Source: Aurantiochytrium sp. KH105
Lineage: Eukaryota > Sar > Bigyra > Thraustochytrida > Thraustochytriidae
Reading direction: 5' to 3'
Length of the DNA: 64,000 nucleotides
NCBI GenBank assembly: GCA_003116975.1
Contig: BGKB01000141.1
Coordinates: forward strand, 1-64,000
Every line of letters begins with the position of its first letter. Within the stretch, counting starts at the first letter, position 1. The position numbers and the translations under genes were made by a program. Below the pieces are notes generated by a model. That model did no database searches, was not told the origin of the DNA, and saw only the letters and a program-made list of their open reading frames with translations. Positions 36,647 through 54,567 of this stretch are shown here, piece by piece.

Positions 36647-37602
36647 CTCTGCTAATGCGCTGCGCCGTTGTCGCGGCGCGGCTCTCTTCGCAGCCGCCTG
36701 CCTATCTGTCTGCCTGATCGCGCCGTCCCCGATTTGCTTTCGTCCTTCACTTCACTCTTGACGGCGAGTCCGTGGTGGTGACAGGTGAGTGGAGGCCCTT
36801 TTGCCTTTGCTGTGACGGTGGACAACCCATTTCCTAGCAATGTTTACGACCCCAAAGGCGGTGCGCGCAATCGTCATCATCATGACCATTGCAAAACGGC
36901 CGGGGATGGCACGAACTTGTGCTGCTGTCATGTAGGTGCCGCTTTAATGGAGACCTGAATGACAGACCAGTTTTCGCGCCTCAATTGACCATGAAAGAAA
37001 AGGTCGAACAGCATGCCATCAAGTAGTCCGTTGTCAATCACAAGGGAAGAATGAGCGAGAAAGATTTTCTCGCAGCACGCCACTGAAGACGACAAGCTTC
37101 AATGTTGGTAGCGACAGCGGCCTGTCCGAGCAAGAAATGTTAATTTTGTTCACCCCCGTCTGACAATTACATTCGCTCAACATGAAACAGCCAGCCAGCC
37201 AGATATTAAGCGTACGACCCTATACAGCAATTAGCGAGCCAAAACGTTTGGTGTAACGTGATCATCACACGCGAGACCGCTATCTCCTTCTTGCCGAGGC
37301 AAACGGCGTCGCTCAACCTCACCTCAAGTTCTGCGCTGGTTCCGGACCTGTTCCGCCAAGTATACGTATCTTTTTTTGGGCGGCAGCGCGGCAGAGAGTC
37401 AGAGGGGGATGCGTGACCCCGTTTGTGGCCGCAATTCTAATAGATACCGAGAGCCGCGGCGCAGCACACCTGCCGGCGAGGGTCTGCGAGGCGGCAGCCC
37501 GGCCAGCAGTCTGGGCCGTAGCCCTCCACGCGGCCGTGCGGCCCTTTGCTGCAAGCTGCCGAGTCGCTTTGCGCGCCTCGCAGGCTCGGGCCTAGCGGTG
37601 TC
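36647..37602. other. Divergent intergenic region upstream of the NRPS
   Basis: The 956 bases separate the TANGO2-like and NRPS starts and are more AT-rich than the other divergent regions. No gene and no long microsatellite. The NRPS open frame extends to 37546 without an ATG, so 37546-37602 is treated as leader. Confidence 0.7.
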
Positions 37603-40600
37603 ATGTTGAACCCGCCGCCTTCGGCAGGCCGGGCCTCGGCTCTTGCCTCGTCAATGTCCACAACGACGAGCTCATCGTCGTCGTCGTCGTCGTCGTCCTC
37701 GTCGCGATCCCCATCAACTGCATCGAGCTCCCCGACCTCCCCACCAACGGAGCAAAGGGCGCGAGCCTCCGCTGCTGCCGCTCGGGTCTCGGTCGTCCAG
37801 TTTGCGGCCACGAGCACAGGTAGTCTCGACGCCGAAGCCCTTGAGTCCAGCGTTACCCGAGCGTGCGAGCGCCAGGCACTCTTGGCGGGGCCGGGAAGAC
37901 TCAACTTTAAGATCCTCACGGTCCAAGAGGCGCACGAAAAGGGCAAGAGCGACGTCGACCTTGCGCAAGAAGCCCTCGCCCCAATCGACTTTTCAGGCCG
38001 CCAAGAGGAGTCAAATGTGCTAGTCGTGCGTCTCTTACGATGCTTTCCGGGCAAGGACATTCTCGTCATCGTCGCCGACAGACGCTTTATCGACCCGCTC
38101 TCCTTCTCCCTGCTGCTCTCTGACGTCAAGCTGCTCTACGAATCTGGCGTCAGTTTCTCGCTGGCGCCGCTCGAGGTGCAGTTCGAGGAGTACAAGGCTT
38201 GGCGTACCGATCAACGCGAGGCGGCCCTTGCTGCGGGCGAGGACACCCAGACGAGCTTTTGGCAACACCACCTCGCGGGCCCGCTGCCCAAACTCGAGCT
38301 CCCGCCCGACCCCGCGACCACCGCCCACGCACCGCCCCGGTCCCAAGGCAGTCGAAACCTTGCTGCCCAGCTTGCAATGCCTCTACCCCCCGAGCTCTGC
38401 GATAGCCTTCGTGTGCTTGCGGTGCGAGAAGACCTCGCGTTGCGAACCCTCTTGCTTGCTGCCTTTCACACGCTTCTGGCAAAGCACGCCGGAAATACTG
38501 ACATTATCCTCGGCTGCCACGTCTCGGGACGTACGCAACACGCCGAGCTGAAAAATATCGTTGGCGCCTTTGAAAACTGGGCTCCACTTCGCCTGCAAAG
38601 CGCTGATCACCCTTCTGTCCGCGAGTTTGCTGAGCGCTGTGGTCAGGGACTTGCCGATGCAGAAGCAAACGCAGAAATCCCTCTTGACGACATCATGCGT
38701 TCAGTCGGCTGCTCAGAGTCGCTCTTCAAGGCAGGATTTGAGGTGTACGGGAATATCGTTGAAGACTACGGCCTCCCACTCATTAGTTCTCGCGTCATGC
38801 GCTTCATTCTCGGCCTCGAGCATGGTTCGCAGTCATCTGGTGGCGGCGCTGACAATCGCCAGGAGGAAGAGGAGGACGGTTTCTCCGTGCCGTCCTCGCT
38901 GGATACCTTTTCCTCCCTGCACGCGCAGCAACAGACCAAACCACTCATGCTGGGAGGCGTGAGACTCGACTCAATTCCACTTCGTTTCTTGATGGAGCGC
39001 GGGGACGATGACCTGCGCCTTGTCGGTACCACTTCACCAGTCTTTCGACTCGCATTTCACTACAAGTCCAGCGTACTGTCAGAGGCTACCGTTGCACGAA
39101 TGTGCTCCCACTTCCAAACTTTGCTCGAGGATGTGGTCCGTCGATTTGCTGATGTCCGTATCTCCGACCTTCGCATCCTGTCGGCACCTGAAGAAGATAT
39201 CGTTCTTCGAAAATTCAATGAGACTGCGCGCACCTTTGATTCGACTATGGACAATCTTTACGTTCACGAGCTCGTCGACAGACCGGCCGCTCGCACACCA
39301 GACGCCGTTGCCGTTTCTGTACATGGCGGTCGGGAAAGCCTTACGTATCGTGAGCTCGTGGCAAAGGCTAATCAGCTTGCAAACTTTCTACAACTCGTCG
39401 GCATCGGTCTCGAGGATCCCGTCATGGTTCTCTTGCCGCGCTCGCCGATGCTCACCGTGGCGTGGCTCGCTGTTCTCAAGGCAGGGGCAGCCATCATGCC
39501 GACCGACACAAAGTACCCGGCGTCCAGGATCCGTGTCATGCTCGAGGACGCACGCTGCAGCGTTGCCATCACAGACTCCTCGCTCGAAGATCACTTTGCG
39601 GGCACATCGACACGTCTTATTCTAATCGATCGCGACTGGGAGCGCGCCGTCGAGCTTGGTAGCCCACAGCCACCCGTGCTGCGTCCTCCAGAGGATCCGA
39701 GTCAAAAGCTGGCGAGTCTGGCATATGTCATCTACACGAGCGGATCCACGGGGAAACCCAAGGGCGTCATGCTCGAGCACGGCGCGCTTGCAAATTATAT
39801 TCGCTGGCACATCGAATACTATCACATGTCTGCAAAGGACCGCGTCTTTGCCTGCGCAGGTCTTGCTTTCGACGCCTCCATTGCCGACACCTGGCCCACG
39901 CTCGTCGTTGGCGCCTGCCTCTTGCCCATCGTCGACGCAGACATTGCAATTGTTCCGCCTCGTTTGCTCGACTGGATCGTGCGCGAAAGGGCAACAATGG
40001 GCTTTCTCACCACGCAAATTTGTGAAATGGTTCTCGAAGAAGACTCTTCGCATCCGCGTAAGGATCTCGGGTCCCTGCGGCTCATATACACTGGAGGAGA
40101 TCGCTTGCACATGGGTCCGCGCAAAGGCGCACCTTATGAACTTGTTAACATTTATGGCCCTACCGAAAACACAGTCAACGCGACCATGACGTATGTGCAG
40201 GAAGGCCTTCGGACGCCTCCCTCAATTGGATCTCCAGCACCTAACACGCAATGCTTCATTCTTGATCCAGAGTCCTTCACACCGGTTCCCATCGGAGTCT
40301 TCGGCGAGCTCTTTCTCGCGGGTGTTCAGCTTGCACGCGGATACCTCAACCTGCCAGAGCTCTCCGCAGAACGCTTTCTTATCAATCCATTTGATATCGG
40401 TTCGAAACGCATGTACCGGACAGGCGATCTTTGTCGTTGGCTCCCCGATGGCCAGATTGATTTTCTTGGACGCATTGACACGCAAGTCAAGATCCGGGGA
40501 AACCGCGTCGAGCTTACCGCGATTGAATCGTGTATGCTCTCGTGTCCAGGCGTCAAGGATGCCATCGTCATTGCCCGCGAGGACAAGCCCGGGAACAAGC

Positions 40601-43600
40601 GTCTTGTGGCCTACTACATTGCCAAAGATGGTTCCCGAAGCGACAACGAACGCAGCAAGCTTGCCGCATCAATTCATGACGCTCTTGCGAACGAGCTGCC
40701 TGCCTTCATGGTTCCCTCGGCATTTGTTGATCTTGAGAGCTTTCCGCTCACGGCAAACCACAAGGTTGATCGACGCAGTCTTCCTGCGCCAATGCCATCG
40801 CGTGGCACGTCTTCGCATCAAGCACAAGAAGACAGCGACGACGCAGCCTCGCTGTCGCAGACGACATCAAATCTGAGACTTCAGGTGAAAGGCACACAAG
40901 ACAGCTCCCGTGGTGAAACTGGGGGCGGAGATCGCGCGGCACGCGCTGCCACTGAGTCCCGCAGCAAGTACAGTGCGCTTGTCGATAACATGTGGTCCAC
41001 CTTTTGTGAAGCTCTTAGCATGAGCCAACAAGACATGGTGCGTGCGAGTCCGCGAAGTCTGCACTTTTACGAAGCTGGAGGTGACTCGCTTGGTGCAGGG
41101 CGCGTCACGGCGCAAATGAGTCGTCTTTTACATACCGACATTCCCGTTTCCCTCTTGTACAAGTTCCCTCGTCTGGAAGCGTACTGTCACGCTGCTGCAA
41201 CCAGTGCATCGTCTCCGAGCTCTGCACGAATCAATATTCCTGCGGTATCATCGCCTCCTTCCTCCGCCTCATCCTCTGAGAATTTTGGCATGGGCATTTT
41301 ACAGGAAGCAGACGAGCACGATCTGGCCCTGGCGGCTCCAGTAAGCGAAAAACAGGCCTCGTATAATGAAGAGTCGCTTTGGCTTGTGTGCCAGGCACAG
41401 ACAGAGATGGCCAGTCGAGCATACAATGTCTCCTTTTCGTGCAAATTGGCACCTGGACACAGCTTTGACGCCGCCAAGATGCGCCGAGCTCTTGTGCGAA
41501 TCACGCGCGACAATGAGGCCCTCCGAGCCACATACGTTCCAGCCTCCCGAGCGGACGCTACAGTGGACCGTATCATTCTACCCGCGGGGAACGATGACCA
41601 AGACTGCTCAGCGCTTATTGACATGGCTGAATCGACCTTGGATGTCGCGATCGAGTCCGATATCAAGCAATGGCTCGAAAAGGAAACATATGCTCCCTTT
41701 GATCTTGCCAAGGGCCCATTGTTGCGAGTCCGTCTTGCCAATCTTCGTGCTACCGCAAGCGGAGGAAATAGCGAGGCATGGGAAGGTCGGCAGATTTTTC
41801 TCGTCGTCGTGCATCATATCGTCACTGACCTTTGGAGCATGGTGCTTTTGCTTGACCGGCTCATGGACGCCTACCGGGATGATGATCCTGCGTCATCACA
41901 TGAGAATGGTGCCTACACGTACAGCCACTTTATTGCGACCCAACACAATCTCGTGCACGGTGAGCGCGGAAAGCGTTTGCTTGACTTTTGGATGCGTGAG
42001 CTGAGCAGTCTCCGCGACGAAGACGCGAGGGACTCCCTCGATCTCTTGTTCGATCGACCCCGGCCTGCGGTCAAGTCTTTTCGAGGAGCGGCCATTCGCT
42101 TCGAGCTCGATCGCAATGTCACTAAACAGCTTCTTGGCATTTGCTCCAAGACAAGCTTCACGCTCTCGGTGATTTTGCTCTCTTGCTTTAGCATTCTCCT
42201 TCGATCGTTTGCAGGAAGCAACCAGGTTCAGGTCGGAGTTCCAACCGCAGGACGCTGGCGTGAGGAATTTGAGCATCTCATCGGCTACTTTGTCAATCCT
42301 ATTGTCGTGCGGACCGACCTCGCGGGAGATCCTACTCTAGTGCAGCTTTGGAACCGCGTTGCAGCGGTCATGCTGCGAGGTCTTGATAACCAAGCGCTTC
42401 CGTTTCCCGTCCTTGCGGAGCAGCAGGCGCAGTCTGGGGCAACTCGTACCGGAGGGAGTAGCGGAGAAAATCCACTCTTTAGCGTTGCCTTTGTGCTGCA
42501 ACGTCCGCACGTGCAGCGCCCGGGCTTGGCCAAGTCCCTTCTTGGATTCGACGGCGTGAAACTCAACTTTGGCGATGGCGTCCCTCTCATGGAATCGCTG
42601 AGCTGTCCGCATAGGCACGCCCAGTTCGACCTTACCCTCATGTTGTGTCTCGAGGACGGCCAGCTGGCGGGATCAATGCAATACAGCACCGACGTTTTCA
42701 AGGACGAGTCCATAGCTCGCCTCGTGTCCGGTTTGGAACGTATCGTAACGCATGTTGCCGCCGCAGACCCAGAGCGTACGCACATTTCCGACATCCGTTT
42801 GCTCGCTGACGAAGAGCGCGCGCGGGTTTTGACCGAGTTCAACTCAGCGAGAACCAGTGGCCCACCTGCCGGGGCTACGGCAACGGTCCATGCTCTTGTC
42901 GAGGCCCAGGCAGCACGCACACCGGACAAGATTTGCATTGAGACCCCGACACTTTCGCTGACATATCAAGAGCTCAATCGAAGGTCGAATCGCCTCGCTA
43001 ACTTTTTGCGCTTTGCAGGTGTCCGACGAGAGAGCCTTGTTCCTGTCTTTCTCTCTCGCAGTGCCCATCTCATCGTGGTCTGGCTAGCTATCCTTAAAGC
43101 TGGCGGCGCTGTCATGCCCCTTGACCCCAAGTACCCTGCCGAGCGTGTGCGCGGCATGCTCGAGGACGCCGACTCGTCTCTCGTCATCACCGAGGAGGCT
43201 CTCCTTGGCGGCATTCCTTCGAGCTTTTCGGGAAGAAGAGTGGTCATCGATCGCGACTGGGACCAAGTCATCTCTCTGGCGAGCGATGCCAAGGTTAGCA
43301 CCTCGGATCACACAAGCAAGCAACTCGCGTACGCTATATTTACCTCGGGTTCCACTGGAAAGCCCAAAGGAGTCCTCCTCGAACATGCGGGCCTTTTGAA
43401 CTATATTCGCTGGCATCTCGAGTACTATCAAATGACGCCCGATGATCGCGTCTTCGCCTGCGCTGGTCTTGCCTTCGACGCGGCCATGGCGGATACTTGG
43501 CCCACGCTTGCCGTCGGCGCCTGCCTGGTACCTGTCACCGACTCCGATATTAGCGTCGTTGCACCACGACTCTTGGACTGGATTGCTGAGAAAAAGGTGA

Positions 43601-46600
43601 CGATGGGTTTTCTAACAACCCAGCTCTGCGAAATGGTCCTGGAGGAAGACACGGAGAATCCTCGCGATAATCTCGGGTCACTCCGCCTCCTCTATACAGG
43701 TGGAGATCGGCTTCACTTTGGTGCCCGCAAGGATGCGCCGTATCGTCTTGTCAACATCTATGGACCGACAGAGACGACCATCAATGCCACCATGACTACG
43801 GTCCCGCCAGGGATGCGCGAGCCTCCAAGCATTGGAAAGCCTGCTTCTGGGGTAGTTTGCCTCGTGCTTGATCAAGAACACCTTACGCCGCTGCCAGTAG
43901 GAGTGTATGGCGAGTTATTTATTGCTGGTGAGCAGGTCGGTCGGGGATATTTTAACCTTCCCAAGCTCACAAAGGAGCGTTTTCTACCGGTCCCGGCCGA
44001 CCTCGCCATTGACTGTCCATCATTTCTGGGCGATCACCCGCGCATGTACCGCACAGGAGACCTTGTACGCTGGCGCGAGAACGGCCATATCGAGTTCCTT
44101 GGTCGACGAGACACGCAAGTGAAGATTCGAGGCAACCGCATCGAGCTCGTGGCCATCGAGTCTGTTCTCTTGCAACACCCCGCTGTCCGAGAAGCTGTTG
44201 TAGTTGTCAGCGAGCGCGACCGGGACAAGTTTCTCGTTGGCTATGTTGTGCCGCGTGAAGGAGCAGAAGTATCCTCGTCTGCGCTGCGCAAATTTCTTAG
44301 CGCGTCGCTCCCGGCCTTCATGGTGCCAAGTGCGCTCATTTCCATGAAGTCGTTTCCTCTTACGCAAAATCACAAGGTCGATAAGCGCGCGCTTCCAGCG
44401 CCAGGTGCGACCGCTCGTCGAGACAAGAACGCCGAGGGAGCCTCGCGGAGCTCACGGCCACGACGTTTCGACTCAAACTCGACCACAGGCTCACGAACTC
44501 GTCGCGGACCTAGTGATCAGAGCTCGGAGCTTGCTCAGAGCGTTCGCAAAATTTTTGCAGAGAGTCTTGGTCGTCGTCCGGAAGACCTCGAGGACACGAT
44601 GGATTTTTTCGAGGAAGGTGGACACTCGCTCTCTGCGGCGCGCATGATGAGCAGACTTCGTGCTGACTTTGGCGTCGACATGCCTCTGTCCAAATTTCTG
44701 CAGTCACCTACACCTCGCAGCGTCATTCTCTTTGTCGAGTCTGCCAAGGGGAAATCGGCTAGATCCTCAGGGTCCGTGAGCGGGGCGGGTGGGTCGAGCG
44801 CACCTGGGGGTACACGATCGTTGGGGAGAGCGTCGCAAGGGGACTCGCAGTCTTTCTCGTCAGGTGTCTTTTCCATGAAGCAAACCCAGCAAGATTCGCG
44901 CCCTTCGCTCATCTCCTTGCAGCAGAAGCAACAGGCCTCGGCGCGTCCTCAGGGCTCGCTCGTGGGTCAGCTCATGGGCGCCTCAAGCACTACAAAACTT
45001 ATGCCTAGCTCGTTCGTTTCGTCAAGCTACCGTGACAGTGGTATTAGCGAGTGGCTTCAGGAGCGTCGTGCGCCCCCTCTCCGCAGTGAGACACATCGGG
45101 AGCGGGAAGAAGGAGGGACGAGCGACAGCCTTACTTCTGGATCGCAGACATCGTCAGTGCTACGTCGCGTGCGAGAGCAGCAGACACCCACTTCCGACCC
45201 GCGTGGGCATCAATCTTTGCTCTCGCAATTCACATCCGGTGGGTATTCAGACGCTGCTAAATTGCAAACCTCCCGAGACAACGCTCCGGCTGTTCCACTT
45301 TCAATGGCGCACGCATCAATGTGGTCAGGGAGCATGCAAAGCCAACAGGCCCTTCAAGATCGTTTGCGAAAAGCTGCTCAGGCCAGTGAAGCGGGCTCCC
45401 GAGTCAAGGCCCGCGACGAAACACCTGAAGTCTGTGTACTTTCTTACAACCAGCAGTCGCTGTGGTTCATGCACAAGATGGACCCGAAGCGTGTCGACTA
45501 TGTCGTCCATTTGTGCTGCACGATTGAAAGTTTTGCAGAGACGAGCGATTCGAGCGCAAGCAAGGATCTCAATGTCGATTATCTTCGAATTGCTCTTCAA
45601 GGCCTCGTCAATCGCCATCAATCTTTGCGGACCTTGTATGGCGAGGAGAACGGTCTGCCGTATCAAATCATCTACCCTGTTCACCAACCCAAGAGTACTT
45701 TGTCCGCCAACAATACTTTGGCGCAATCCAAAACAGAGCAAGCTGCAAACCCGAGCAAAGTGGACTTCAAGGCAGACCTTTCGCCCGCGACATCGCAGGA
45801 GGACCTCCACAAGGTGCTTCAGGCTGACCTGCACACACCTTGGGACCTCCAGGGAGGTACTCCATTTCGCGCGCGTCTTTATGCAGACAGCGACAAGAAT
45901 CCGGTGCTCTTGCTGACTGCGCATCACATTGCAATGGATGGCTGGTCTCTCGATGTTATCCTCAAGGATCTTGGCGAAATGTACGATGCAGTGACAAAGA
46001 GCGGGGGCATTCTCGAGGCGACGATCTATGAAACACCGCCAGAGTCAACCTTTACCGTCGCCCAGTTTGCCAAGATGCAAAAAGAGGAAATGAATTCGGC
46101 AACCGGCACGCGGCTGTGGAGTTTTTGGCAGCGACAGCTGGCGGGACATGAGGCCTCCTTGGACTTGCCAACGGAGTCGGATCCTGCCGAAAGTGTCCCG
46201 TCGCCGTCACAGTCCGTATCTGACAGCACGGAGGCGACCCGTGATGGCGCATGGTATTTTTTCGATCTCGAGGCGGATTTTTTTGCAAAGCTGCAAGAGA
46301 CGATACGTTTAGAGCGTGCGACGGAGTTCATGGCGCTCGTGGCCTTTTACGCTGGGTTGTTGTACCGCTACACTGGCAAAGAAGACATTTTGATTGGCAC
46401 GCCCATGGCTTGTCGTATGGTGCCGGAACTGGACCGGACCGTCGGCAATATTACCAACATTGTGGTTCTTCGCATGCACGTCAGCAAGGAGGACCACTTT
46501 CGCAGTCTCTTACGTCAGGCGCGGACCGTCGTGCTGGCCGCATTAGAGCATCAGGAGCTCCCTTTTGCGGTTTTGGTGGAAAAGATGGGAAGCCACCGCA

Positions 46601-49600
46601 GCGCAGGGCGCAGTCCGGTCTTCCAGGTCCTTCTGTCCCTGAATCAATCTTTTTCGAGCGAGGACAAGGATTTGCCATCGCTGGCCCGTCTCGAGGCGGG
46701 TGAAAGCGTTCCCGTCGGATCTCGCATGCGCATGCGGCTTCGCAAAGACGTTGTGCAAGAGGCCTCGCCCTACGATTTGCAGCTCATTGTGACAAAGGGC
46801 AACTTGAACGGAGATGCCCTTCGAGCGGGCCTCCAATATAAGACGGCCCTCTTTGCCGAGGAAAGCATTCGCAATCTTGCAGCTCACTTTCAAGCTCTTG
46901 TACGCGGCAGTGCTGAGAACCCGACGCGTCTGTATTGCAGCCTACCTCTCCTCACGGCTCACGAGAAAGAGGTAATTCTTGCTGACTGGAATCGCACGGG
47001 CCAAAAGTTTGACGAGTCCACGTGCGTGCACGTCCTGTTCGAGACATGCGCAGAGAAGAGCCCGCTTGCGACCGCGCTGAGTTGGCGCGGCAGGATTTGG
47101 ACGTATGGCGAGCTCAATGCGCGGGCAAATGTCCTGGCGCGATACCTTCGATACAAATGCCACGTTGAGCCCTCATGCAATGTCGGCCTTTTTTTGGAGA
47201 GATCGCCCAACATGATTTTGGCGATGATGGCAGTTGCCAAGGCGGGGGGCGCCTACGTCCCCATGGATGTTTCCTGGCCGCAGGACCGTCTCGCTTATGT
47301 TTTCAAGGACTCCCACATGCGTGTGCTTCTCTGTGACCGGTCTTCGTTAGGGCTTTTGGAAAAGCTTGATGCTGGAACAGCATCTTCGTTGCCTCTTGTG
47401 GTACCTCTTGACATTCGGTGGGAGCGCATTGCGGGCAAGGTAGAGCGCGCTTTCGGCGGGCGGAGCATGACGAATCTTCCACCTCCAGCATCCTTGTCGT
47501 GGGGTTCTAATGCGCAGCAGTGGCGTGGCTCGCGCAGCACACTGTACATGATCTACACTTCGGGGAGCACAGGTAATCCGAAAGGTGTACTCGTGGAGCA
47601 TCGTTCCATGGTCAATCTTGTCAGCTGGCACATTCGCGAGTACAGCATATCGGCCCGGGATCGCGCCTCGCAGCTCGTGGGCTCAGCCTTTGACCCTGTA
47701 GGCCTGGAAATATGGCCCTTTCTTTCGGCTGGAGCATCGGTTCACTTTGTGGAGGACGAGGAGAAGAAATCCCTCAACGATTTACGCGCCTCTTTGCACG
47801 ATAACCGCATCACGGTGTCGCTACTCCCCACGCCACTTCTCGAAGTATTCCTGCGAACCAAGGCATCGTCAGCTACGCATCACCCTGCTTGGCCTTCAAG
47901 TCTTCGCGTCGTCTATGGCGGCGGCGATAAGCTCCACGTGCCTCGCGAGGTCTTAGCGCGGGTCCCATTCCGTCTTGACAATCACTACGGCCCGTCGGAA
48001 GGTACTGTCATGTGCACCTACTTTGTCACCAATTCGCTGCTTCGTAAAAGAGCTGATTCAACGTCTTCCTCCTCGTCGTCGTCGTCGTCTACCTCGTCTT
48101 CTTCTTTGATACCCGCTGGTCGAAGCAAAGCTGTGCTCTCGCCTTCGATTGGAAAACCTCTCGACAACTTTGCTGCCTTTGTCCTGGATGATTTTCTCGA
48201 GCCTGTGCCCGCGTTGGTTGCTGGAGAACTTTGCATTGCCGGGCCAGGTATCGCGCAAGGCTACTATGGCCGTCCTGATTTGACGCGCGAGCGCTTTGTA
48301 GATATGCCACCAACACTTTTGGAAAGTATTGAGCAATCTCCAACGCTCTCGTATCTCAAAGGTTCGAAACTGTACCGTACCGGGGACCGGGTGCGTTTTC
48401 AGCGCGACGGCAACATTGAGTTCATTGGCCGGGTCGATTTTCAAGTGAAGATTCGCGGCATGCGTGTAGAGCTCGGAGAGATCGAGTCGGTGCTCAAGCA
48501 GCACGACGCAGTTCTCGAAGCATGCGTTCTCGCACGCGAAGACGTCCCTGGTCAGCAGAGGCTTTGCGCTTATGTGGTAGCCGCCTCGCCTTCTGATGGC
48601 GAGGAGGGCTCCTCCTACGGGGAGGTAGAGCGTATTCATTCGCTGCAGAGCCTTGTCAAGGACAAGTTGCCTGCCCACATGGTTCCAGTCGCCTGGGTTT
48701 TTATGAATAAACTGCCTGTCACCGCCAACGGGAAAATTGACCGGCGCGCTCTGCCCGCGCCCACGGAAAGCGAGCATGATGTGCATGGTCAAGCCCTTCA
48801 AGCGGTTGTCCCGCCGCGGTCCAAAGAAGAGGTCATGATCGCCGCGCTTTGGAAGGAGACTCTAGGCCTGCAGTCGATCAGCATCCACGACAACTTTTTC
48901 GACCTTGGAGGACATTCACTTGCTGCAACACAGCTTCTTGCCATGGTTCAAGAGAATCTCAAGGTAGACTTGCCAATATCGGTGTTTTTTGCTGACCCAT
49001 CTATCGAGGGCATGGCGGCAGCTGTAGCCGCGCGTAATGGATCTTCAGGGGATGGACTTCGCGACGGCGCGACGCCCACACCAGAGACCGCAGACGCCTT
49101 GCTCGGCTTCGACCCGGAGGTCGAGTGTACCCTCGACGAAGACGTTGTTCCCTCAGCAACGAGTGTCTTCGACCCGGACATGGCCCAGACATGGTCGCGC
49201 ATTTTCGTCACAGGAGCGACTGGATTCTTGGGGGCCTTCTTTGTCCACCAAGTCCTTGAGACTCTCGCAGAGTCAAAACCGGAACTGACGATTCTCTGTC
49301 TCATTCGAGCTGACAGCGACGCGATCGCGATCGCACGCCTGCGCGAGGCACTTCTCCAGTTCAATCTTTATAACGAGGAGACAATGCCAAGCATGGGGAG
49401 CTTTGAGGATTCTCATTTGGACTGGACTGACTCGAACGGCTCAGGAGGAATGTCGTCGCGGCATCATATTCTCGTTGTGCGTGGCGACTTGGGCCAAGCA
49501 CGCTTTGGCATGCCCGAGCGCGACTTTGTACGCTTTGCGCAGGAGCTGGACGTGATCGCTCACGCGGGAGCCTACGTCCACGCGTGGTATCCATACAAGC

Positions 49601-50952
49601 GACTCCGCGCAGTCAATGTTGATGGCACGCAGGAGGTCATTCGTCTTGCTTGTGCACGCAAGGACAAGCGCGTCTGGCTCTTGCATGTGTCCACACTTTC
49701 CGTCTTCATTCCACCGACCCACGAAGCCAGAATGGATGAGCGAGGTGCCGCAGAGACCGTCGATGATGGCGATGAAACGTGCTGGTTTGGCGAAGACGCT
49801 TCCCTTCCAGACGCCAGTGACCTGCACCACCTTGAATCAGGTTACGCGCAAACAAAGTGGGTCGCGGAGCACTTGGTGCGGGAAGCGCACTCGCGCGGCG
49901 TACCTGCGTTTATCTTTCGTCCGGGGCGCATCACGGGTCACTCGGTCACGGGAATGGCGAGCTTTGGAGATTTTATGTGTCTCTTTCTCAAGGGATGTCT
50001 TCAGCTTCAGGCCGCGCCAAGGCTGAATTGGGTGATGGACATGAATCCCGTCGACTTTGTCTGTCGCGCAATGTTGCAGTTGCTGAGCTCGCCCGTCGCG
50101 CCCGCCCGAGTGCTCGGCCGCGCGTTCAACATGTGCCATCCCGACCCATGGTTTCTGCCCGAATATTTTGATTGGGTTGCCTCGACAGGGTACGCCTGTG
50201 AACTCGTCCCTTATGCGGAGTGGCTTGTCCGCCTCAATCGCGCGGTCAATCACACCGCATCCGCATCGTCATCCGGGCAAGGGTCGTCGAGTCGTGATGG
50301 TGGTGGTTCGGGTGCTTTCGAAGATGGCAGTGACCCCTTCACTCGCGCGATCTCAACTTCCTCCTCTTCCTCATCTTCCTCTTCGTCTTCGTCAACTGCC
50401 GCCTCGTTGCTGGCAGGGGGCGCGGCAAGGTCTTCTTCTGCCTCGCCTGCGTTGCCATCGTCCTCGCAGAATGGCGCTGGGTTTCCGGAACGGTATCGGC
50501 CAGCAAGTCGTCAAGACTCGGTTCCATCGAAACCAATGTCTGTGCAGCCATCATTGCATCCGGGAAGTCGCTCGGAATCGATATCTTCCAAGCCAATGTC
50601 CATGCTTCCCTCGCAGCAAGGCTCGCACACGTCGGCGCAACAAGGCGCAAGTCCTCGGCGTCCAGAGATTGCGTCCAAGACATCTTCTGCTGCGCCTCCG
50701 ACACGAAGACAATTGGCTAAAGTGGAACACGAGGAGCCCGCGAACGCATTGCATCCTTTGCTGGTCGTCTTCAAGCCGAACGTTGAAGACATGGAGCCCC
50801 CCTGCAAGCTCAAGTTTGAGGTAAGCTCCCTCATTGACGTTAATTACCCTCCACAAGCGACGTTGAACCAGACCAGCATGGATTGCATGATACGCTGTGG
50901 TTTTATTCCTCCTCCCGCTCGCGATGCTGATGCTTTCTTTACATTTGAGTGA
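37603..50952 (+). CDS. Three-module non-ribosomal peptide synthetase with terminal reductase
   Basis: A single uninterrupted frame encodes 4,449 residues; the ATG at 37603 is the first in frame. Domain order (residues, approximate): Ser-rich leader 1-60; degenerate condensation 62-530; adenylation 539-1063; carrier with Ser1162; condensation 1246-1730 with HH at 1404-1405; adenylation 1746-2266; carrier with Ser2342; Ser/Gln-rich linker 2381-2606; condensation 2610-3120 with HH at 2774-2775; adenylation 3127-3723; carrier with Ser3772; Lys2-like thioester reductase 3865-4213; Ser-rich tail. It should activate three amino or hydroxy acids, condense them on phosphopantetheine arms and release an aldehyde or alcohol using NAD(P)H. 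There is no epimerase, methyltransferase or thioesterase. A phosphopantetheinyl transferase must come from elsewhere. Codon use resembles its neighbours, with no obvious sign of recent transfer. Substrates are unknown. Confidence 0.95.
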   Translation: MLNPPPSAGRASALASSMSTTTSSSSSSSSSSSSRSPSTASSSPTSPPTEQRARASAAAARVSVVQFAATSTGSLDAEALESSVTRACERQALLAGPGRLNFKILTVQEAHEKGKSDVDLAQEALAPIDFSGRQEESNVLVVRLLRCFPGKDILVIVADRRFIDPLSFSLLLSDVKLLYESGVSFSLAPLEVQFEEYKAWRTDQREAALAAGEDTQTSFWQHHLAGPLPKLELPPDPATTAHAPPRSQGSRNLAAQLAMPLPPELCDSLRVLAVREDLALRTLLLAAFHTLLAKHAGNTDIILGCHVSGRTQHAELKNIVGAFENWAPLRLQSADHPSVREFAERCGQGLADAEANAEIPLDDIMRSVGCSESLFKAGFEVYGNIVEDYGLPLISSRVMRFILGLEHGSQSSGGGADNRQEEEEDGFSVPSSLDTFSSLHAQQQTKPLMLGGVRLDSIPLRFLMERGDDDLRLVGTTSPVFRLAFHYKSSVLSEATVARMCSHFQTLLEDVVRRFADVRISDLRILSAPEEDIVLRKFNETARTFDSTMDNLYVHELVDRPAARTPDAVAVSVHGGRESLTYRELVAKANQLANFLQLVGIGLEDPVMVLLPRSPMLTVAWLAVLKAGAAIMPTDTKYPASRIRVMLEDARCSVAITDSSLEDHFAGTSTRLILIDRDWERAVELGSPQPPVLRPPEDPSQKLASLAYVIYTSGSTGKPKGVMLEHGALANYIRWHIEYYHMSAKDRVFACAGLAFDASIADTWPTLVVGACLLPIVDADIAIVPPRLLDWIVRERATMGFLTTQICEMVLEEDSSHPRKDLGSLRLIYTGGDRLHMGPRKGAPYELVNIYGPTENTVNATMTYVQEGLRTPPSIGSPAPNTQCFILDPESFTPVPIGVFGELFLAGVQLARGYLNLPELSAERFLINPFDIGSKRMYRTGDLCRWLPDGQIDFLGRIDTQVKIRGNRVELTAIESCMLSCPGVKDAIVIAREDKPGNKRLVAYYIAKDGSRSDNERSKLAASIHDALANELPAFMVPSAFVDLESFPLTANHKVDRRSLPAPMPSRGTSSHQAQEDSDDAASLSQTTSNLRLQVKGTQDSSRGETGGGDRAARAATESRSKYSALVDNMWSTFCEALSMSQQDMVRASPRSLHFYEAGGDSLGAGRVTAQMSRLLHTDIPVSLLYKFPRLEAYCHAAATSASSPSSARINIPAVSSPPSSASSSENFGMGILQEADEHDLALAAPVSEKQASYNEESLWLVCQAQTEMASRAYNVSFSCKLAPGHSFDAAKMRRALVRITRDNEALRATYVPASRADATVDRIILPAGNDDQDCSALIDMAESTLDVAIESDIKQWLEKETYAPFDLAKGPLLRVRLANLRATASGGNSEAWEGRQIFLVVVHHIVTDLWSMVLLLDRLMDAYRDDDPASSHENGAYTYSHFIATQHNLVHGERGKRLLDFWMRELSSLRDEDARDSLDLLFDRPRPAVKSFRGAAIRFELDRNVTKQLLGICSKTSFTLSVILLSCFSILLRSFAGSNQVQVGVPTAGRWREEFEHLIGYFVNPIVVRTDLAGDPTLVQLWNRVAAVMLRGLDNQALPFPVLAEQQAQSGATRTGGSSGENPLFSVAFVLQRPHVQRPGLAKSLLGFDGVKLNFGDGVPLMESLSCPHRHAQFDLTLMLCLEDGQLAGSMQYSTDVFKDESIARLVSGLERIVTHVAAADPERTHISDIRLLADEERARVLTEFNSARTSGPPAGATATVHALVEAQAARTPDKICIETPTLSLTYQELNRRSNRLANFLRFAGVRRESLVPVFLSRSAHLIVVWLAILKAGGAVMPLDPKYPAERVRGMLEDADSSLVITEEALLGGIPSSFSGRRVVIDRDWDQVISLASDAKVSTSDHTSKQLAYAIFTSGSTGKPKGVLLEHAGLLNYIRWHLEYYQMTPDDRVFACAGLAFDAAMADTWPTLAVGACLVPVTDSDISVVAPRLLDWIAEKKVTMGFLTTQLCEMVLEEDTENPRDNLGSLRLLYTGGDRLHFGARKDAPYRLVNIYGPTETTINATMTTVPPGMREPPSIGKPASGVVCLVLDQEHLTPLPVGVYGELFIAGEQVGRGYFNLPKLTKERFLPVPADLAIDCPSFLGDHPRMYRTGDLVRWRENGHIEFLGRRDTQVKIRGNRIELVAIESVLLQHPAVREAVVVVSERDRDKFLVGYVVPREGAEVSSSALRKFLSASLPAFMVPSALISMKSFPLTQNHKVDKRALPAPGATARRDKNAEGASRSSRPRRFDSNSTTGSRTRRGPSDQSSELAQSVRKIFAESLGRRPEDLEDTMDFFEEGGHSLSAARMMSRLRADFGVDMPLSKFLQSPTPRSVILFVESAKGKSARSSGSVSGAGGSSAPGGTRSLGRASQGDSQSFSSGVFSMKQTQQDSRPSLISLQQKQQASARPQGSLVGQLMGASSTTKLMPSSFVSSSYRDSGISEWLQERRAPPLRSETHREREEGGTSDSLTSGSQTSSVLRRVREQQTPTSDPRGHQSLLSQFTSGGYSDAAKLQTSRDNAPAVPLSMAHASMWSGSMQSQQALQDRLRKAAQASEAGSRVKARDETPEVCVLSYNQQSLWFMHKMDPKRVDYVVHLCCTIESFAETSDSSASKDLNVDYLRIALQGLVNRHQSLRTLYGEENGLPYQIIYPVHQPKSTLSANNTLAQSKTEQAANPSKVDFKADLSPATSQEDLHKVLQADLHTPWDLQGGTPFRARLYADSDKNPVLLLTAHHIAMDGWSLDVILKDLGEMYDAVTKSGGILEATIYETPPESTFTVAQFAKMQKEEMNSATGTRLWSFWQRQLAGHEASLDLPTESDPAESVPSPSQSVSDSTEATRDGAWYFFDLEADFFAKLQETIRLERATEFMALVAFYAGLLYRYTGKEDILIGTPMACRMVPELDRTVGNITNIVVLRMHVSKEDHFRSLLRQARTVVLAALEHQELPFAVLVEKMGSHRSAGRSPVFQVLLSLNQSFSSEDKDLPSLARLEAGESVPVGSRMRMRLRKDVVQEASPYDLQLIVTKGNLNGDALRAGLQYKTALFAEESIRNLAAHFQALVRGSAENPTRLYCSLPLLTAHEKEVILADWNRTGQKFDESTCVHVLFETCAEKSPLATALSWRGRIWTYGELNARANVLARYLRYKCHVEPSCNVGLFLERSPNMILAMMAVAKAGGAYVPMDVSWPQDRLAYVFKDSHMRVLLCDRSSLGLLEKLDAGTASSLPLVVPLDIRWERIAGKVERAFGGRSMTNLPPPASLSWGSNAQQWRGSRSTLYMIYTSGSTGNPKGVLVEHRSMVNLVSWHIREYSISARDRASQLVGSAFDPVGLEIWPFLSAGASVHFVEDEEKKSLNDLRASLHDNRITVSLLPTPLLEVFLRTKASSATHHPAWPSSLRVVYGGGDKLHVPREVLARVPFRLDNHYGPSEGTVMCTYFVTNSLLRKRADSTSSSSSSSSSTSSSSLIPAGRSKAVLSPSIGKPLDNFAAFVLDDFLEPVPALVAGELCIAGPGIAQGYYGRPDLTRERFVDMPPTLLESIEQSPTLSYLKGSKLYRTGDRVRFQRDGNIEFIGRVDFQVKIRGMRVELGEIESVLKQHDAVLEACVLAREDVPGQQRLCAYVVAASPSDGEEGSSYGEVERIHSLQSLVKDKLPAHMVPVAWVFMNKLPVTANGKIDRRALPAPTESEHDVHGQALQAVVPPRSKEEVMIAALWKETLGLQSISIHDNFFDLGGHSLAATQLLAMVQENLKVDLPISVFFADPSIEGMAAAVAARNGSSGDGLRDGATPTPETADALLGFDPEVECTLDEDVVPSATSVFDPDMAQTWSRIFVTGATGFLGAFFVHQVLETLAESKPELTILCLIRADSDAIAIARLREALLQFNLYNEETMPSMGSFEDSHLDWTDSNGSGGMSSRHHILVVRGDLGQARFGMPERDFVRFAQELDVIAHAGAYVHAWYPYKRLRAVNVDGTQEVIRLACARKDKRVWLLHVSTLSVFIPPTHEARMDERGAAETVDDGDETCWFGEDASLPDASDLHHLESGYAQTKWVAEHLVREAHSRGVPAFIFRPGRITGHSVTGMASFGDFMCLFLKGCLQLQAAPRLNWVMDMNPVDFVCRAMLQLLSSPVAPARVLGRAFNMCHPDPWFLPEYFDWVASTGYACELVPYAEWLVRLNRAVNHTASASSSGQGSSSRDGGGSGAFEDGSDPFTRAISTSSSSSSSSSSSSTAASLLAGGAARSSSASPALPSSSQNGAGFPERYRPASRQDSVPSKPMSVQPSLHPGSRSESISSKPMSMLPSQQGSHTSAQQGASPRRPEIASKTSSAAPPTRRQLAKVEHEEPANALHPLLVVFKPNVEDMEPPCKLKFEVSSLIDVNYPPQATLNQTSMDCMIRCGFIPPPARDADAFFTFE
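37786..39190 (+). other. NRPS N-terminal condensation-like domain, catalytically degenerate
   Basis: The segment has condensation-domain length and pattern (FWQHHLAGPLPKLELP, LLLAAFHTLLAKHAGNTDIILGCHVSGR). At the active-site position HHxxxD it reads ADRRFIDPLS: both histidines are replaced (Asp159, Arg160) and only the aspartate (Asp164) remains. It probably cannot condense, and may be structural or recruit a partner. Confidence 0.85.
39217..41190 (+). other. NRPS module 1: adenylation domain 1 and carrier domain 1
   Basis: Adenylation cores are clear: YTSGSTGKPKG (39733-39765), NIYGPTENTVNATM, YRTGDLCRW, and NHKVDRRSLPAP at the end with the catalytic lysine. By eye-alignment to GrsA, pocket residues read about D-A-A-F-I-T-I-V-N-K. 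The carrier has EAGGDSLGAG with the attachment serine codon at 41086. An unstructured stretch of about 60 residues lies between the two. Confidence 0.9.
41338..44740 (+). other. NRPS module 2: condensation, adenylation 2, carrier 2
   Basis: The condensation domain keeps VVHHIVTDLWS (His codons 41812 and 41815). The adenylation domain has FTSGSTGKPKG, NIYGPTETTINATM and NHKVDKRALPAP. Its pocket reads about D-A-A-F-L-T-I-I-N-K, almost the same as module 1. The carrier has EEGGHSLSAA with the serine codon at 44626. Confidence 0.92.
45430..49020 (+). other. NRPS module 3: condensation, adenylation 3, carrier 3
   Basis: Condensation motif TAHHIAMDGWS (His codons 45922 and 45925) is intact. The adenylation domain has YTSGSTGNPKG (47554-47586), NHYGPSEGTVM and TANGKIDRRALPAP; its pocket reads about D-P-L-L-V-G-H-V-M-K, clearly different from modules 1 and 2. 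A Ser-rich insert (48055-48110) interrupts it after the A5 motif. The carrier has DLGGHSLAAT with the serine codon at 48916. Confidence 0.92.
49195..50250 (+). other. NRPS terminal thioester reductase (NAD-binding_4, Lys2 type)
   Basis: The Rossmann motif VTGATGFLG (49207-49233) opens the domain. VVRGDLGQARFGM, VDVIAHAGA-like sequence (LDVIAHAGAYVHAWYPY), VNVDGTQEVIRLA and the catalytic Tyr-x-x-x-Lys in GYAQTKWVAEHL (Tyr codon 49843, Lys codon 49855) follow, then FRPGRITGHS. These match the reductive release domains of Lys2 and NRPS. It should cleave the final thioester to an aldehyde, possibly on to an alcohol. Confidence 0.92.
50270..50949 (+). other. NRPS C-terminal Ser-rich tail
   Basis: After the reductase come about 150 low-complexity residues rich in Ser, Gln and Pro, including a 13-serine stretch near 50362-50400, and then about 70 more ordered residues that resume reductase-like sequence (HPLLVVFK, ending FFTFE). 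The tail is inside the same frame. Confidence 0.8.
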
Positions 50953-51525
50953 ATGTTTGGAGCAAAGCAACTCTCTGCATTTCTGTTCTGCCAGACTCTA
51001 TGGATCCTATCGTGTTCTGTGGGCAGTAGGAAAGAAAGTCATTCACATTGGTGGCGCCGAAGACCGATTCATCATCTGCTAGGCCTAGACTCTTATTTTT
51101 TTTTTATCATTGCAGCAGTGCAACACGCGTTGCGCTCAAGACTGACTGACTCTGCCAAACTGATTTTTGTGTAAATTATTCTTTCGTTTCGACGATTTTT
51201 TCCAATTTTTTCTTGGCTTGGAGATGCTCCTTGGGTGTAGCTCTTAGTCCCGTATCCGATAAGGTCTTCCTCTGCACTTCGAAACTTTTGCCATGTGTAG
51301 TAAGGACTTTTCTTTTTTATCTTCTCCTTAGGTCCACGGAGACGTATGGTACACACTGTTTGGCAAGATAACATTCTCTTTTTGAGAACTGAGAACGCTG
51401 GTCCGCGCTTTCTTTCCTTCTTGCAAAAGGCGCGATGCGATATGTCTCCCTTGGAGCTATGAAGCGTGCGCGCAAAGCGAAGGCAAAGCGCTCCGAGACG
51501 CCCAGGTGAGCGACCACGGGCCATC
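50953..51525. other. Intergenic region between NRPS and repeat-protein gene
   Basis: About 570 bases, AT-richer, with a T10 run near 51096-51105. No gene is clear. A GTGAG donor-like site at 51506 follows a short basic frame starting at ATG 51459, so an upstream exon cannot be excluded, but I found no acceptor that makes it convincing. Confidence 0.6.
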
Positions 51526-54500
51526 ATGTCGTCAGCGCCTGCGGTCGGACATCCCATGTCTTTACTCCGAGCGAAAGCGTGGCTCGAGGAATACCAAGGC
51601 TCGGGGGGGTCTTCACCTCCGGCTGCAAAGGGGGACAAATGTCGGCCAGAGCTCATGAATGCGAATCGGGGCCTAGGGCCGACGCATTCGCTACAGAAAG
51701 CGAAAAAGGTAAAGCGCAAAGCGAAGAAAAACAAGGGTGCCACCAAAATGTTGAGCGAGCGGGTAGGCGCTCAACAAGGTGTCGCAATAACTGTTCAAGC
51801 GACAAGGAGAGCAATGCCACGGCAAAACAAGAACAAGAACAAGAAGACCGACACCACTATCCTTTCCAGGGTGCCAATCTTGAGCCCAGGTATTAATCCG
51901 ACAGCGTACGCCAAGTCGAGGAAGGCATTCGAGAGTTGCGACCTCGAGGACATTTTTGATGAAACAATCGCGCTGCTATATTCTCTTGACGCCTTGAAGG
52001 TCCCCAAGCATCAGCATAGCAACAAAAAGAAGCAGCCGGGGCAATCTGATTTAGCCCACGGCGCAAGACTTCGTCGCTTAGAATGTTGGGGAAATGATGC
52101 GACATTATTGGAAGCTTTGCGCGATTTGCAAACGAAGCGTGCAAATCGCGCGCTCCCGAAGAAGCCAGAGTTTGTGATCGAGGTTAACGCCTCGCCACAT
52201 TGTCGCCCGCGATCTGCGGCTCCGAGACGCGCCACTGGATCACCGGGCGACCCAGCCGTCAACTTGAGGCCTAAATCTGCTCCTCGATCGCGTCCCACAA
52301 CCCCAAAGCAACGAGCAATTGCGCGTGCGATTACCTCAGCGGGCGACCGTGCACGAAAAGACAGCCAGCTTAGTCCTAATGCCCTTCGGAAAGAAAAGAT
52401 TCGACGCTCTCAGGACTTTCGTGTGTCGTTTTTGACGCGCTCGCACAAATCTTTCAATCGCAATATTGATATTCTCAACGAGCGTGTGCAGAGAGCCCAA
52501 GCCCGCGAAAAAGAGGATTCTTTTCATCAAAACGTGCAGCAGGAAAAGACAAAGCGTAGATCTGAACCCGAACCCGAACGCCATTTGTCGCACGAAGAGT
52601 CTGATTTGCAAGATGGGCGGCCAGAGGTAATCGAAGGACAAGCCACATTAGGGAGGCTAGCGTCCTCTACAATTCCGAGCTTGGTCGACGTTGAATCAGC
52701 AAACAACCCAAGTCTTTCTCGTGCGTATACTGAGTTGTCCCCGCGAGATGAGAAGCACCTCGAGGTCCTGCCGATAGACTCACCAAGGAAAGAAAATTAC
52801 TCGGAGACGAAGAGGTTCTCGGAAGAAATGCGACTTTTGCAAGACTTTTCTTCGATGGTCAGCAGAAGGAACTTGTCTGCAACATCGACTCATGCAAGTC
52901 TGCCTGCCGCTCTAGCTCAAGTCGATGCGATCATGGATGAGCTCGACCTTGGCAAGAGCTCGAAAAAGATGTCCACTGTAGCTACGAGTGGGATGGACTT
53001 CTCAACCTTTGCGACGGGTCTTACGCAGTCACATGACATGAATACCTCCGCCGGAGACAAAGCTCTAGAACCAGGCCTTGAAAGGGCTATCCAGGAGGCA
53101 AACAGAACAAAAGACGCTGATATCCATTCACCTGTACAAAGCGCACAATTAAGCGACCGAACGGCGCTGAAGGTTTCTACTCTTGAGCGGCGGATCGAGG
53201 AAGACGACGAGACAATTTCCGCAAGTGAGAGTGCTCACGAACACGCGGCAGCTTCCGTCGGTGATCGTGGTCAGGGCGCGCAAACACGATCGTATAGTTT
53301 GTCTCTGGCGATTGAAACTGAAGACGAAAACGCTACGACCACCGAGGCTGACTCCGAAAGAGGCGTCAGTGATCGCCAAAGAAGTTGTCGAAGGTCTTAT
53401 CGCTCGACGGGTACAGGGGAATATTCGTCTGGAGAGTCTGCGTCTGATGAAAGTGAAAATGTGGATGCGATCATGAACCAGATCGATTTTGACGTCACGA
53501 CACCAACACCACTCGCCCGCGCCAGCAAGAGGCATCTTCTGTCCACACCGACAGCGGCTACAGCGAACAGTTTGTCGATAACACTCGAGGCTAACGAGCA
53601 GAAAGACGTGGACGCTATAATGGATGGTCTTGACTTTGGGATCAGCACGTCAACTCCGGTTAACTACGTGAGCAAGAAGTCTCTTTTGACGACTGTAACC
53701 AGATCTAGCCTGCCTGTTGTTCTCGATGACGCAAACGAGGTGGAGGAAAAGGAGGAAGAGGAAGTGGAGGCTATTATGGGTGCCATCGATTTTGGCATCA
53801 CAACTCCCACGCCGCTTGCTCGCGCAAGTAAGAAAGATCTTATGACAACACCCACAGGAAGGAGTTTGCGAAGCGCACTCAATTATGAAGAGCAAAGCGA
53901 CGTGGATGTAATCATGGAGGGACTCGATTGTGGTGTCAGCTTGTCGATGTCGGCCCGTCGTGACGGCAAGGAGACGATTCATGCGACGTCGACGCGGGAC
54001 ACTTTGCCCATTTCTCTGGACACAGGCACCGATTGTGGCGCTGAAGACGTGGACGCCATCATGAATGACATCGACTTTGGTATCACGACACCAACTCCGC
54101 TCGGCCGTAGCAGTAAACGAACGCTTCTGGCCACTCCTACAGGTTCGAGCTTGCTTGGTACACTGGAGATAGATGAGGAAGCGGACGTCGATGCGATTAT
54201 GGATTTTGGCATTTCCACGCCGACGCCGCTCGCAAGCCGTCACGATGTGCGAGGTGCATTAGGCTCGCCCAGCCAAAAGCATTTGGCCAGCAAAGGTTCG
54301 CGGGACGTCAGCGATCTCCGTACAGCGTTGCATTCGTCCCCGCAGAGTGGTTTGGGCAACATTTTTTCCGACGCTACGCGGAGTGCGGTGCCTATCCGGG
54401 ACGACACGGTCGAGACAAAGGGAGAAGAATCAGTCGTGAGATCGCGAAGTACGGAAGGCGACGGTTTCGACCTCGACGAGGATCTTTTTGGCAGGCTCGA

Positions 54501-54567
54501 TATCGAAGACGAGGAAGTCGAAATCGCGTCAAGCACGGCAAATGAATACCAGGAGTCGAAGCGATGA
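51526..54567 (+). CDS. Unrecognised disordered protein with VDAIM-type repeats
   Basis: The protein is 1,013 residues from the first in-frame ATG; the open frame extends upstream only to a GTG. Residues 1-330 are Lys/Arg/Pro/Ser-rich and look disordered, apart from a helical patch (CDLEDIFDETIALLYSLDAL). The middle is charged. From about residue 460 comes a seven-copy repeat: VDAIM followed by two or three residues, then (L/I)DFGI(T/S)TPTPL-R-SK and a Leu/Thr-rich segment. The C-terminus is acidic (DLDEDLFGRLDIEDEEVE). I see no enzyme motif, signal peptide or membrane segment. The repeated helical VDAIM followed by TPTP (possible proline-directed phosphorylation sites) suggests a multivalent scaffold, but that is inference only. 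Confidence 0.85.
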   Translation: MSSAPAVGHPMSLLRAKAWLEEYQGSGGSSPPAAKGDKCRPELMNANRGLGPTHSLQKAKKVKRKAKKNKGATKMLSERVGAQQGVAITVQATRRAMPRQNKNKNKKTDTTILSRVPILSPGINPTAYAKSRKAFESCDLEDIFDETIALLYSLDALKVPKHQHSNKKKQPGQSDLAHGARLRRLECWGNDATLLEALRDLQTKRANRALPKKPEFVIEVNASPHCRPRSAAPRRATGSPGDPAVNLRPKSAPRSRPTTPKQRAIARAITSAGDRARKDSQLSPNALRKEKIRRSQDFRVSFLTRSHKSFNRNIDILNERVQRAQAREKEDSFHQNVQQEKTKRRSEPEPERHLSHEESDLQDGRPEVIEGQATLGRLASSTIPSLVDVESANNPSLSRAYTELSPRDEKHLEVLPIDSPRKENYSETKRFSEEMRLLQDFSSMVSRRNLSATSTHASLPAALAQVDAIMDELDLGKSSKKMSTVATSGMDFSTFATGLTQSHDMNTSAGDKALEPGLERAIQEANRTKDADIHSPVQSAQLSDRTALKVSTLERRIEEDDETISASESAHEHAAASVGDRGQGAQTRSYSLSLAIETEDENATTTEADSERGVSDRQRSCRRSYRSTGTGEYSSGESASDESENVDAIMNQIDFDVTTPTPLARASKRHLLSTPTAATANSLSITLEANEQKDVDAIMDGLDFGISTSTPVNYVSKKSLLTTVTRSSLPVVLDDANEVEEKEEEEVEAIMGAIDFGITTPTPLARASKKDLMTTPTGRSLRSALNYEEQSDVDVIMEGLDCGVSLSMSARRDGKETIHATSTRDTLPISLDTGTDCGAEDVDAIMNDIDFGITTPTPLGRSSKRTLLATPTGSSLLGTLEIDEEADVDAIMDFGISTPTPLASRHDVRGALGSPSQKHLASKGSRDVSDLRTALHSSPQSGLGNIFSDATRSAVPIRDDTVETKGEESVVRSRSTEGDGFDLDEDLFGRLDIEDEEVEIASSTANEYQESKR
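52917..54240 (+). repeat. Seven-copy protein repeat, about 46-52 residue period
   Basis: Copies of the VDAIM core begin near 52921, 53461, 53609, 53766, 53905, 54047 and 54185. The last six are in tandem at 138-157 bases; the first stands alone 540 bases upstream. Copies 2, 4 and 6 are closest to each other (DFGITTPTPLARASK-like). Copy 5 has lost the TPTP segment and copy 7 the residues between IM and DFG. Confidence 0.9.

Follow-up and report, generated by a model that had tools for sequence, protein, structure and literature searches.

A three-module nonribosomal peptide synthetase with a reductase end, encoded in one open frame of the thraustochytrid Aurantiochytrium sp. KH105

Large nonribosomal peptide synthetases (NRPSs) have been described from algae. 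According to the accessible part of PMC4661987, Bigelowiella natans possesses a 490 kDa NRPS of ten domains, of which three are condensation (C) domains, with a product that is called mysterious, and the stramenopile Aureococcus anophagefferens possesses an NRPS of the same arrangement (460 kDa); the same portion names a 'Red' domain in the legend of a figure with PKS/NRPS examples. Compared by text and not by domain order or sequence, these algal enzymes (PMC4661987, as accessible) resemble the NRPS analyzed here in their ten domains, their three C domains and their size. In the available part of PMC7073580, the three-module NRPS of B. natans is read with an epimerase, and the reductive end is assigned to a separate two-module NRPS, so it is doubtful that the B. 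natans enzyme has the same architecture as the one analyzed here. Two cyanobacterial proteins, from Mastigocoleus (L042) and Brasilonema (L071, which begins at the edge of its locus, with its N-terminal start outside the view), share the three-module order C-A-C-A-C-A-R and approx. 30-33% identity over long stretches; however, they differ in their adenylation (A) codes, and the reductase (R) domain of the family described below lies outside the cyanobacterial group.

The NRPS gene lies in a 64,000-nucleotide window, positions 1 to 64,000 of contig BGKB01000141.1 (C141) of Aurantiochytrium sp. KH105. The initial annotation presented it as the strongest candidate for an undescribed pathway, which goes too far: algal ten-domain NRPSs of similar size have been published (PMC4661987, in its accessible part), and the protein is already in public databases under a different name. 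In the open-access literature searched, to the extent that the texts were available, no thraustochytrid nonribosomal peptide product is described; antiSMASH was run on thraustochytrids in PMC6050695, section 11 of which, within the portion available, gives details for PKS only, and the NRPS terms looked for are absent from PMC12221091, PMC7179369, and PMC8917795. The enzyme is of a known kind and uncharacterised, and its novelty resides in the features of its family, namely, the kept A codes and a kept first C domain (C1) marked by arginine.

The gene occupies positions 37603..50952 of the plus strand, on which all features described below are also encoded. A single open frame spans 37546-50952; from the first ATG (37603) to the stop codon (50950-50952), it encodes 4449 amino acids without an internal stop. 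Scanning of the whole protein with Pfam yielded three stretches each of PF00501, PF00668, PF13193, and PF00550 and one of PF07993, all far over the curated cut-offs, and established the order C1-A1-T1-C2-A2-T2-C3-A3-T3-R, i.e., repeated C-A-T modules with carrier serines. A chance frame is excluded by the 4449 codons and the ten ordered domains. The NRPS proposed for this stramenopile, with three modules and a terminal reductase in one frame, is thus genuine; the structural points of the initial annotation were right, and its interpretation is supported in part and holds in outline.

A protein search gave 1416 matches among 1465 scored candidates, of which the best 120 were listed. Besides a record from Hondaea fermentalgiana (P0002), five relatives were picked by eye on identity and layout: P0004 (47% identity to the window protein), P0005 (45%), P0021 (47%), P0087 (45%), and P0118 (35% over 70% of the query). 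All five appear to come from labyrinthulomycetes. Identity of the individual C, A, and R domains to four measured relatives ranges from 25 to 66%. The whole layout is kept in P0004 and P0005 and also in P0118, whose A3 gives fragmentary matches; in P0021 the N-terminus is missing, and P0087, which originates from an MMETSP transcriptome, stops inside C3. The occurrence of P0087 in a transcriptome set suggests that the NRPS gene is expressed. Three further reductase-ended proteins (P0070, P0071, and P0099; 30-32% identity) were not counted as family members. Two more protein searches (best 120 matches each) revealed no further close relative but were insensitive, as they also missed P0005 and P0118. 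When bacteria were searched with the reductase domain, 80 loci were kept of 163 relatives among at least 588 stretches, and 15 of the 20 first-listed bacterial relatives of the T3-R region were cyanobacterial. In a quick reductase tree with weak deep forks, P0118 and four family members group together with an SH-aLRT of 90, and the four with 100; the NRPS family falls outside the cyanobacterial group, and no bacterial donor can be named from this domain. Viral contigs contributed three relatives among 65 stretches, one of which (L119) forms a single row in the reductase tree.

H. fermentalgiana is itself a thraustochytrid stramenopile, and P0002 represents the same gene: over 4125 aligned residues (45-4240), it has 17 differences from the window protein, and over 4124 it has 76 from the second allele of KH105 (see below), so the window comes from H. 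fermentalgiana or from a strain very near to it. The public entry for P0002 bears the name ACV synthase and includes a chorismate-mutase domain. Its gene model lacks window residues 2519-2582 and follows the NRPS frame to residue 4250 or thereabouts; beyond that point it takes in residues 745-1007 of the frame at 51466-54567 (83% identity) and 447 residues of the frame at 55151-56500 (99.8% identity). The skipped residues belong to the long linker between T2 and C3 (44731..45414), in which an alignment of six sequences exposes two short, loosely kept patches: one around SSYRxSxISxWL, missing in P0118, and PLxxAHxxxW, found in four of the six (the window protein, P0004, P0005, and P0087). Since the latter patch also occurs in the three relatives, the skipped segment is very probably coding. 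Of the two frames downstream, 51466-54567 (+) encodes 1033 amino acids with no Pfam match and with repeats around VDAIMxxxDFGITTPTPL, and 55151-56500 (+), downstream of the NRPS gene and on the same strand, encodes a type II chorismate mutase with a sub-threshold prephenate-dehydratase match.

The public name would make the protein an ACV synthase feeding β-lactam synthesis, and the three modules agree with such a role. ACV synthase, however, uses three different residues and is defined by a thioesterase end and an epimerisation domain. The domain scan revealed no thioesterase in the frame, which ends in a reductase, and no fourth domain of the C type (epimerase), and A1 and A2 have one shared code; an ACV synthase is therefore scarcely credible. 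The single-frame reading is better supported by the sequence comparisons than the public gene model, and both the name and the model of P0002 appear to be wrong.

The genome assembly comprises 76.0 Mb in 367 contigs, in which matches are mostly paired, as with two haplotypes. At least six condensation-domain matches were found genome-wide, all at this locus (three on C141 and three on C44, a contig of 1.1 Mb); thus, the condensation-domain search, whose counts are lower bounds, located a single NRPS locus. The allele on C44 is likewise one open frame of 4449 amino acids with the same ATG. The two alleles differ at 342 of 13,344 aligned nucleotides and at 77 residues, besides which two serine runs each show a gap of one residue, and the NG86 estimates are 0.0084 for dN and 0.083 for dS (dN/dS about 0.10 overall). 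By domain, dN/dS is 0.07 for C2, 0.15 for C3, 0.10 for A1, 0.02 for A2, 0.04 for A3, and 0.13 for R, and it reaches up to 0.45 in the stretch around T1. Judging from these ratios, the NRPS gene is under purifying selection. The synonymous divergence of the haplotypes, ~8% in the NRPS gene, seems high for one diploid.

The same comparison bears on whether the region might be bacterial contamination joined by misassembly, as the initial annotation had cautioned. The A and R domains do group, broadly, with bacterial ones. Nevertheless, C44 is collinear with window positions 26719-60680 (~34 kb, in four stretches) at 92-97% identity, the neighbours are eukaryotic, and the same gene is recorded from Hondaea with the few differences given above. 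Moreover, in codon use the NRPS gene has a correlation of 0.94 with a myosin gene at a distance of 8 kb and of 0.84-0.91 with four further genes in the window. Contamination is so very unlikely that its probability is close to nil. Nor does a decaying pseudogene retained by chance fit the locus well: low-complexity runs occur and the catalytic histidine of C1 is gone, but both alleles are open, the overall dN/dS is low, and the C1 change is shared by all five sequences compared and hence old and kept. Such decay is barely plausible.

Scanning of 20 flanking frames gave no evident sign of a biosynthetic cluster around the NRPS gene. The chorismate mutase lies downstream of the gene in the window, but P0004 runs on into other domains after its reductase, and no conserved cluster was found. 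Elsewhere in the window, an MFS transporter (14169-15725, +), a nitrite-reductase-type protein (16318-19872, -), and a molybdopterin oxidoreductase with cytochrome b5 and FAD domains (21896-24535, +) form what looks like a nitrate assimilation group (14169-24535). Several further loci were noted in the genome. A protein of ~1290 amino acids with the layout A-T-R-SDR is encoded on C70 (195500-200500; L034), with a paired frame on C274; its A code is only partly readable, and its layout is, we assume, that of fungal NPS10-type enzymes. A 1033-residue protein on C55 (L035) and C4 has acyl-CoA-binding, NAD_binding_4, and short-chain dehydrogenase domains, as scanned in the C55 copy. Thioesterase matches lie within frames of 5708 and 5831 amino acids at C27:318450 and C56:310123 (L122 and L123), which possibly encode a large polyketide synthase.

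Catalytic residues were tallied in the window protein, P0004, P0005, P0087, and P0118. The three carrier domains retain their attachment serines: Ser1162 (41086-41088) in T1 (41056..41190) and Ser2342 (44626-44628) in T2 (44539..44727; PF00550, 58.5 bits), each in 5/5 sequences, and Ser3772 (48916-48918) in T3 (48838..49026; 57.9 bits) in all four sequences that reach T3. The T1 score is modest in the piecewise PF00550 scan (26.4 bits vs. a cut-off of 20.8). The lysine of the A10 motif is kept in A1 (5/5), A2 (5/5), and A3 (4/4). It had also been proposed that one C domain is degenerate and two are intact, which was borne out. In particular, C2 (residues 1240-1745; 41320..42837; PF00668, 201.5 bits) reads HHIVTDL, with both histidines in all five tallied sequences; in a six-sequence comparison, the histidines and the aspartate are present in 6/6, as is a leucine in place of the glycine of HHxxxDG. 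C3 (residues 2605-3125; 45415..46977; 228.5 bits) reads HHIAMDG and matches the motif of elongating C domains exactly; its second histidine is kept in 5/5 and its first in 4/5, being asparagine in P0118.

C1 (residues 60-536, ends set by hand; 37780..39210; PF00668, 105.5 bits), in contrast to C2 and C3, lacks both catalytic histidines and covers just profile positions 142-349 of PF00668 in the piecewise scan. Its active-site loop (38080..38094) lies in the segment ADRRFIDP, where Arg160 replaces the second histidine and Asp164 is kept; both features occur in all five sequences including that of the window, and the first histidine position holds D, L, R, D, and P. As the change is common to the five, it is old and has been kept. 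C1 aligns to C3 of the NRPS family over 430 columns (hhalign, E 3.4e-46). Its identity to the four measured relatives is 38, 35, 41, and 25%, compared with 46, 47, 44, and 34% for C2 and 59, 56, 58, and 38% for C3; it is thus the least conserved C domain (35-41% vs. 44-59% in P0004, P0005, and P0087). The allele dN/dS of C1 is 0.12, and C1 is, as far as sequence informs, under constraint, though below that of a normal C domain.

The N-terminal position of C1 is where starter C domains sit, and C1 might accordingly be a working starter domain that acylates the first residue, which would make the product a lipopeptide aldehyde; the alignment with C3 is in keeping with this. In the part of PMC11546977 that was available, mutation of the second histidine does not always abolish C-domain activity, so C1 is not proven dead. 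However, starter domains of lipopeptide synthetases have a catalytic histidine, whereas in C1 the second is arginine and the first is absent in 5/5 sequences, and low conservation also speaks against a working domain; we regard acylation by C1 as quite unlikely. Most likely, C1 is a kept pseudo-domain that would have a structural or docking role and has lost acylation.

A parallel is offered by the X-domain of glycopeptide synthetases, which, according to the same available portion of PMC11546977, carries HRxxxDD and recruits oxygenases; like C1, it is a C-domain relative with arginine at the position of the second histidine (PMC11546977, in part). Of that motif, the arginine and the first aspartate are present in C1, whereas the first histidine and the second aspartate are absent in 5/5. 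Unlike the X-domain, C1 is N-terminal, has no known partner oxygenase, and is closer in sequence to ordinary C domains (74 bits to 2jgp, from TycC, vs. 42 bits to the X-domain structure 4tx2). The fold model of C1 is weak (mean pLDDT 55, pTM 0.45); its 50 listed PDB matches are C-type domains or chains that contain them, X-domains included, with query TM values of 0.34-0.40, which suggests a C-like fold and allows nothing finer to be read. The likeness to X-domains may therefore serve as a lead only.

The A codes were read at pocket positions anchored by motif, according to a scheme that we presume to apply here. A1 (residues 537-1075; 39211..40827) has the code DAAFYGIVN, A2 (residues 1746-2272; 42838..44418) DAAFYGIIN, and A3 (residues 3126-3731; 46978..48795), which contains a serine-rich insert near 48064, DPLLYGHVM. 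The code DAAFYGI(V/I)N is present in 10 of 12 A1 and A2 domains of six proteins, the exceptions being A1 of P0021 (DAAFFGIVN) and A2 of P0118 (DASFYGAMF), the latter of which means that the residue is not fixed over the whole set; DPLLYGH(V/I)(M/L) is present in 5/5 A3 domains. The family codes match no other domain in a set of 723 adenylation stretches, drawn from 121 proteins that include the family itself; the nearest other codes share 5/9 positions with A1 and A3 and 6/9 with A2. Consequently, no substrate can be called from the codes.

In the A-domain tree, the A1 and A2 domains from the five closer proteins group in a single clade (100/100), which P0118 joins at 100/100, and five A3 domains form a separate clade (100/100). 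With clades chosen after a first tree had been seen, a single clade of all six A1 domains was rejected (p-AU 2.65e-7), whereas five A1 domains without P0118 (0.157) and all 17 family domains (0.268) were not. Given the rejection of the six-A1 clade, A1 and A2 of P0118 may not be one-to-one counterparts of those of the others. Gene conversion as a cause of A1/A2 homogenisation was weighed and set aside, since A1 and A2 of one protein (49.7-61.5% identity in six proteins) are no more alike than those of different proteins (up to 64.9%). A larger tree, built with FastTree, places all family domains in a clade with 21 others, and 13 of these 21 have the code DAWFLG(N/H)VV, which we take to be a leucine code. 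As the family pockets sit among domains with this leucine-type code, the substrates are probably hydrophobic.

The R domain (residues 3860-4240; 49180..50322; PF07993, 198.7 bits) is an NAD_binding_4 end with the motifs TGATGFLG, STLSV (Ser4030/Thr4031), and YAQTK (Tyr4081 and Lys4085), as in reductase-terminated NRPSs. The tyrosine and lysine are kept in 4/4 sequences, and the active-site residues in 5/5 rows of the reductase alignment. The solved structure closest in sequence is the MxaA reductase (PDB 4u7w; E 5.8e-55), presumably from bacterial myxalamid synthesis. The domain is followed by a C-terminal tail with a low-complexity insert (50323..50949), whose end (FIPPP ... FF) looks, by eye, like those of P0005 and P0021 and like the corresponding stretch of P0004.

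The domain had been called Lys2-like, which holds in the sense of a thioester reductase and fails in the sense of Lys2. That the third module and the reductase act as an α-aminoadipate reductase for lysine is favoured by a match to the Lys2 equivalog TIGR03443, yet the score is 906 bits for the whole protein (433 bits for A3-T3-R) against a curated cut-off of 1030. Moreover, the module lies in a three-module chain in which the C2 and C3 histidines are kept, and the A3 code is, by our assumption, not that of Lys2. A lysine-pathway enzyme is very improbable.

These features make it probable that the gene encodes a single-protein NRPS that would produce a linear, unacylated X-X-Z tripeptide aldehyde or alcohol by reductive release. 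A phosphopantetheinyl transferase (PPTase) would prime the three carriers; a candidate with AASDHPPT_N and ACPS domains is encoded on C29, with a paired frame on C39 found by its ACPS match. A1 would place the first amino acid on T1, and C1, which has no catalytic histidine, would most likely not acylate it but play a structural or docking part. C2 would couple the first residue to a second of the same kind, given that the A2 code equals the A1 code, and C3 would append a different third residue selected by A3. Finally, R would free the tripeptide from T3 with NAD(P)H as the linear X-X-Z aldehyde, and a second reduction would give the alcohol. The hydrophobic nature of the residues, the choice between aldehyde and alcohol, the linearity of the product, the fate of C1, and the biological role are the parts of this explanation that we infer. 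A tripeptide-derived aldehyde or alcohol, as envisaged in the initial annotation, is the natural prediction from three modules and a reductase end. The accompanying suggestion of closure to an imine is not favoured: in the portion of PMC7586950 available, it is a dipeptide aldehyde that closes to a cyclic imine and goes on to pyrazinones. Closure of a tripeptide aldehyde would take a ring of nine members, as no such six-membered path is open to it, so a linear product is likelier. A role of the product as a protease inhibitor would be a guess by analogy with known peptide aldehydes.

A broader reading, which we consider unlikely as a whole, is that labyrinthulomycetes, and possibly other SAR protists (e.g., Aureococcus), share an ancient NRPS line that has preserved one hydrophobic X-X-Z tripeptide aldehyde as a near-core metabolite, e.g., a protease inhibitor or signal; C1 would then be a docking platform marked by Arg, in parallel with the X-domain of glycopeptide synthetases. 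The single-frame reading itself would correct a public record that hints at a β-lactam pathway, and the unmatched codes, together with a kept pseudo-C domain, would carry reductive-release chemistry into thraustochytrids. Thraustochytrids are cultivated as a source of omega-3 oil, and, with a single NRPS locus located in this genome, a knockout could reveal the metabolite directly.
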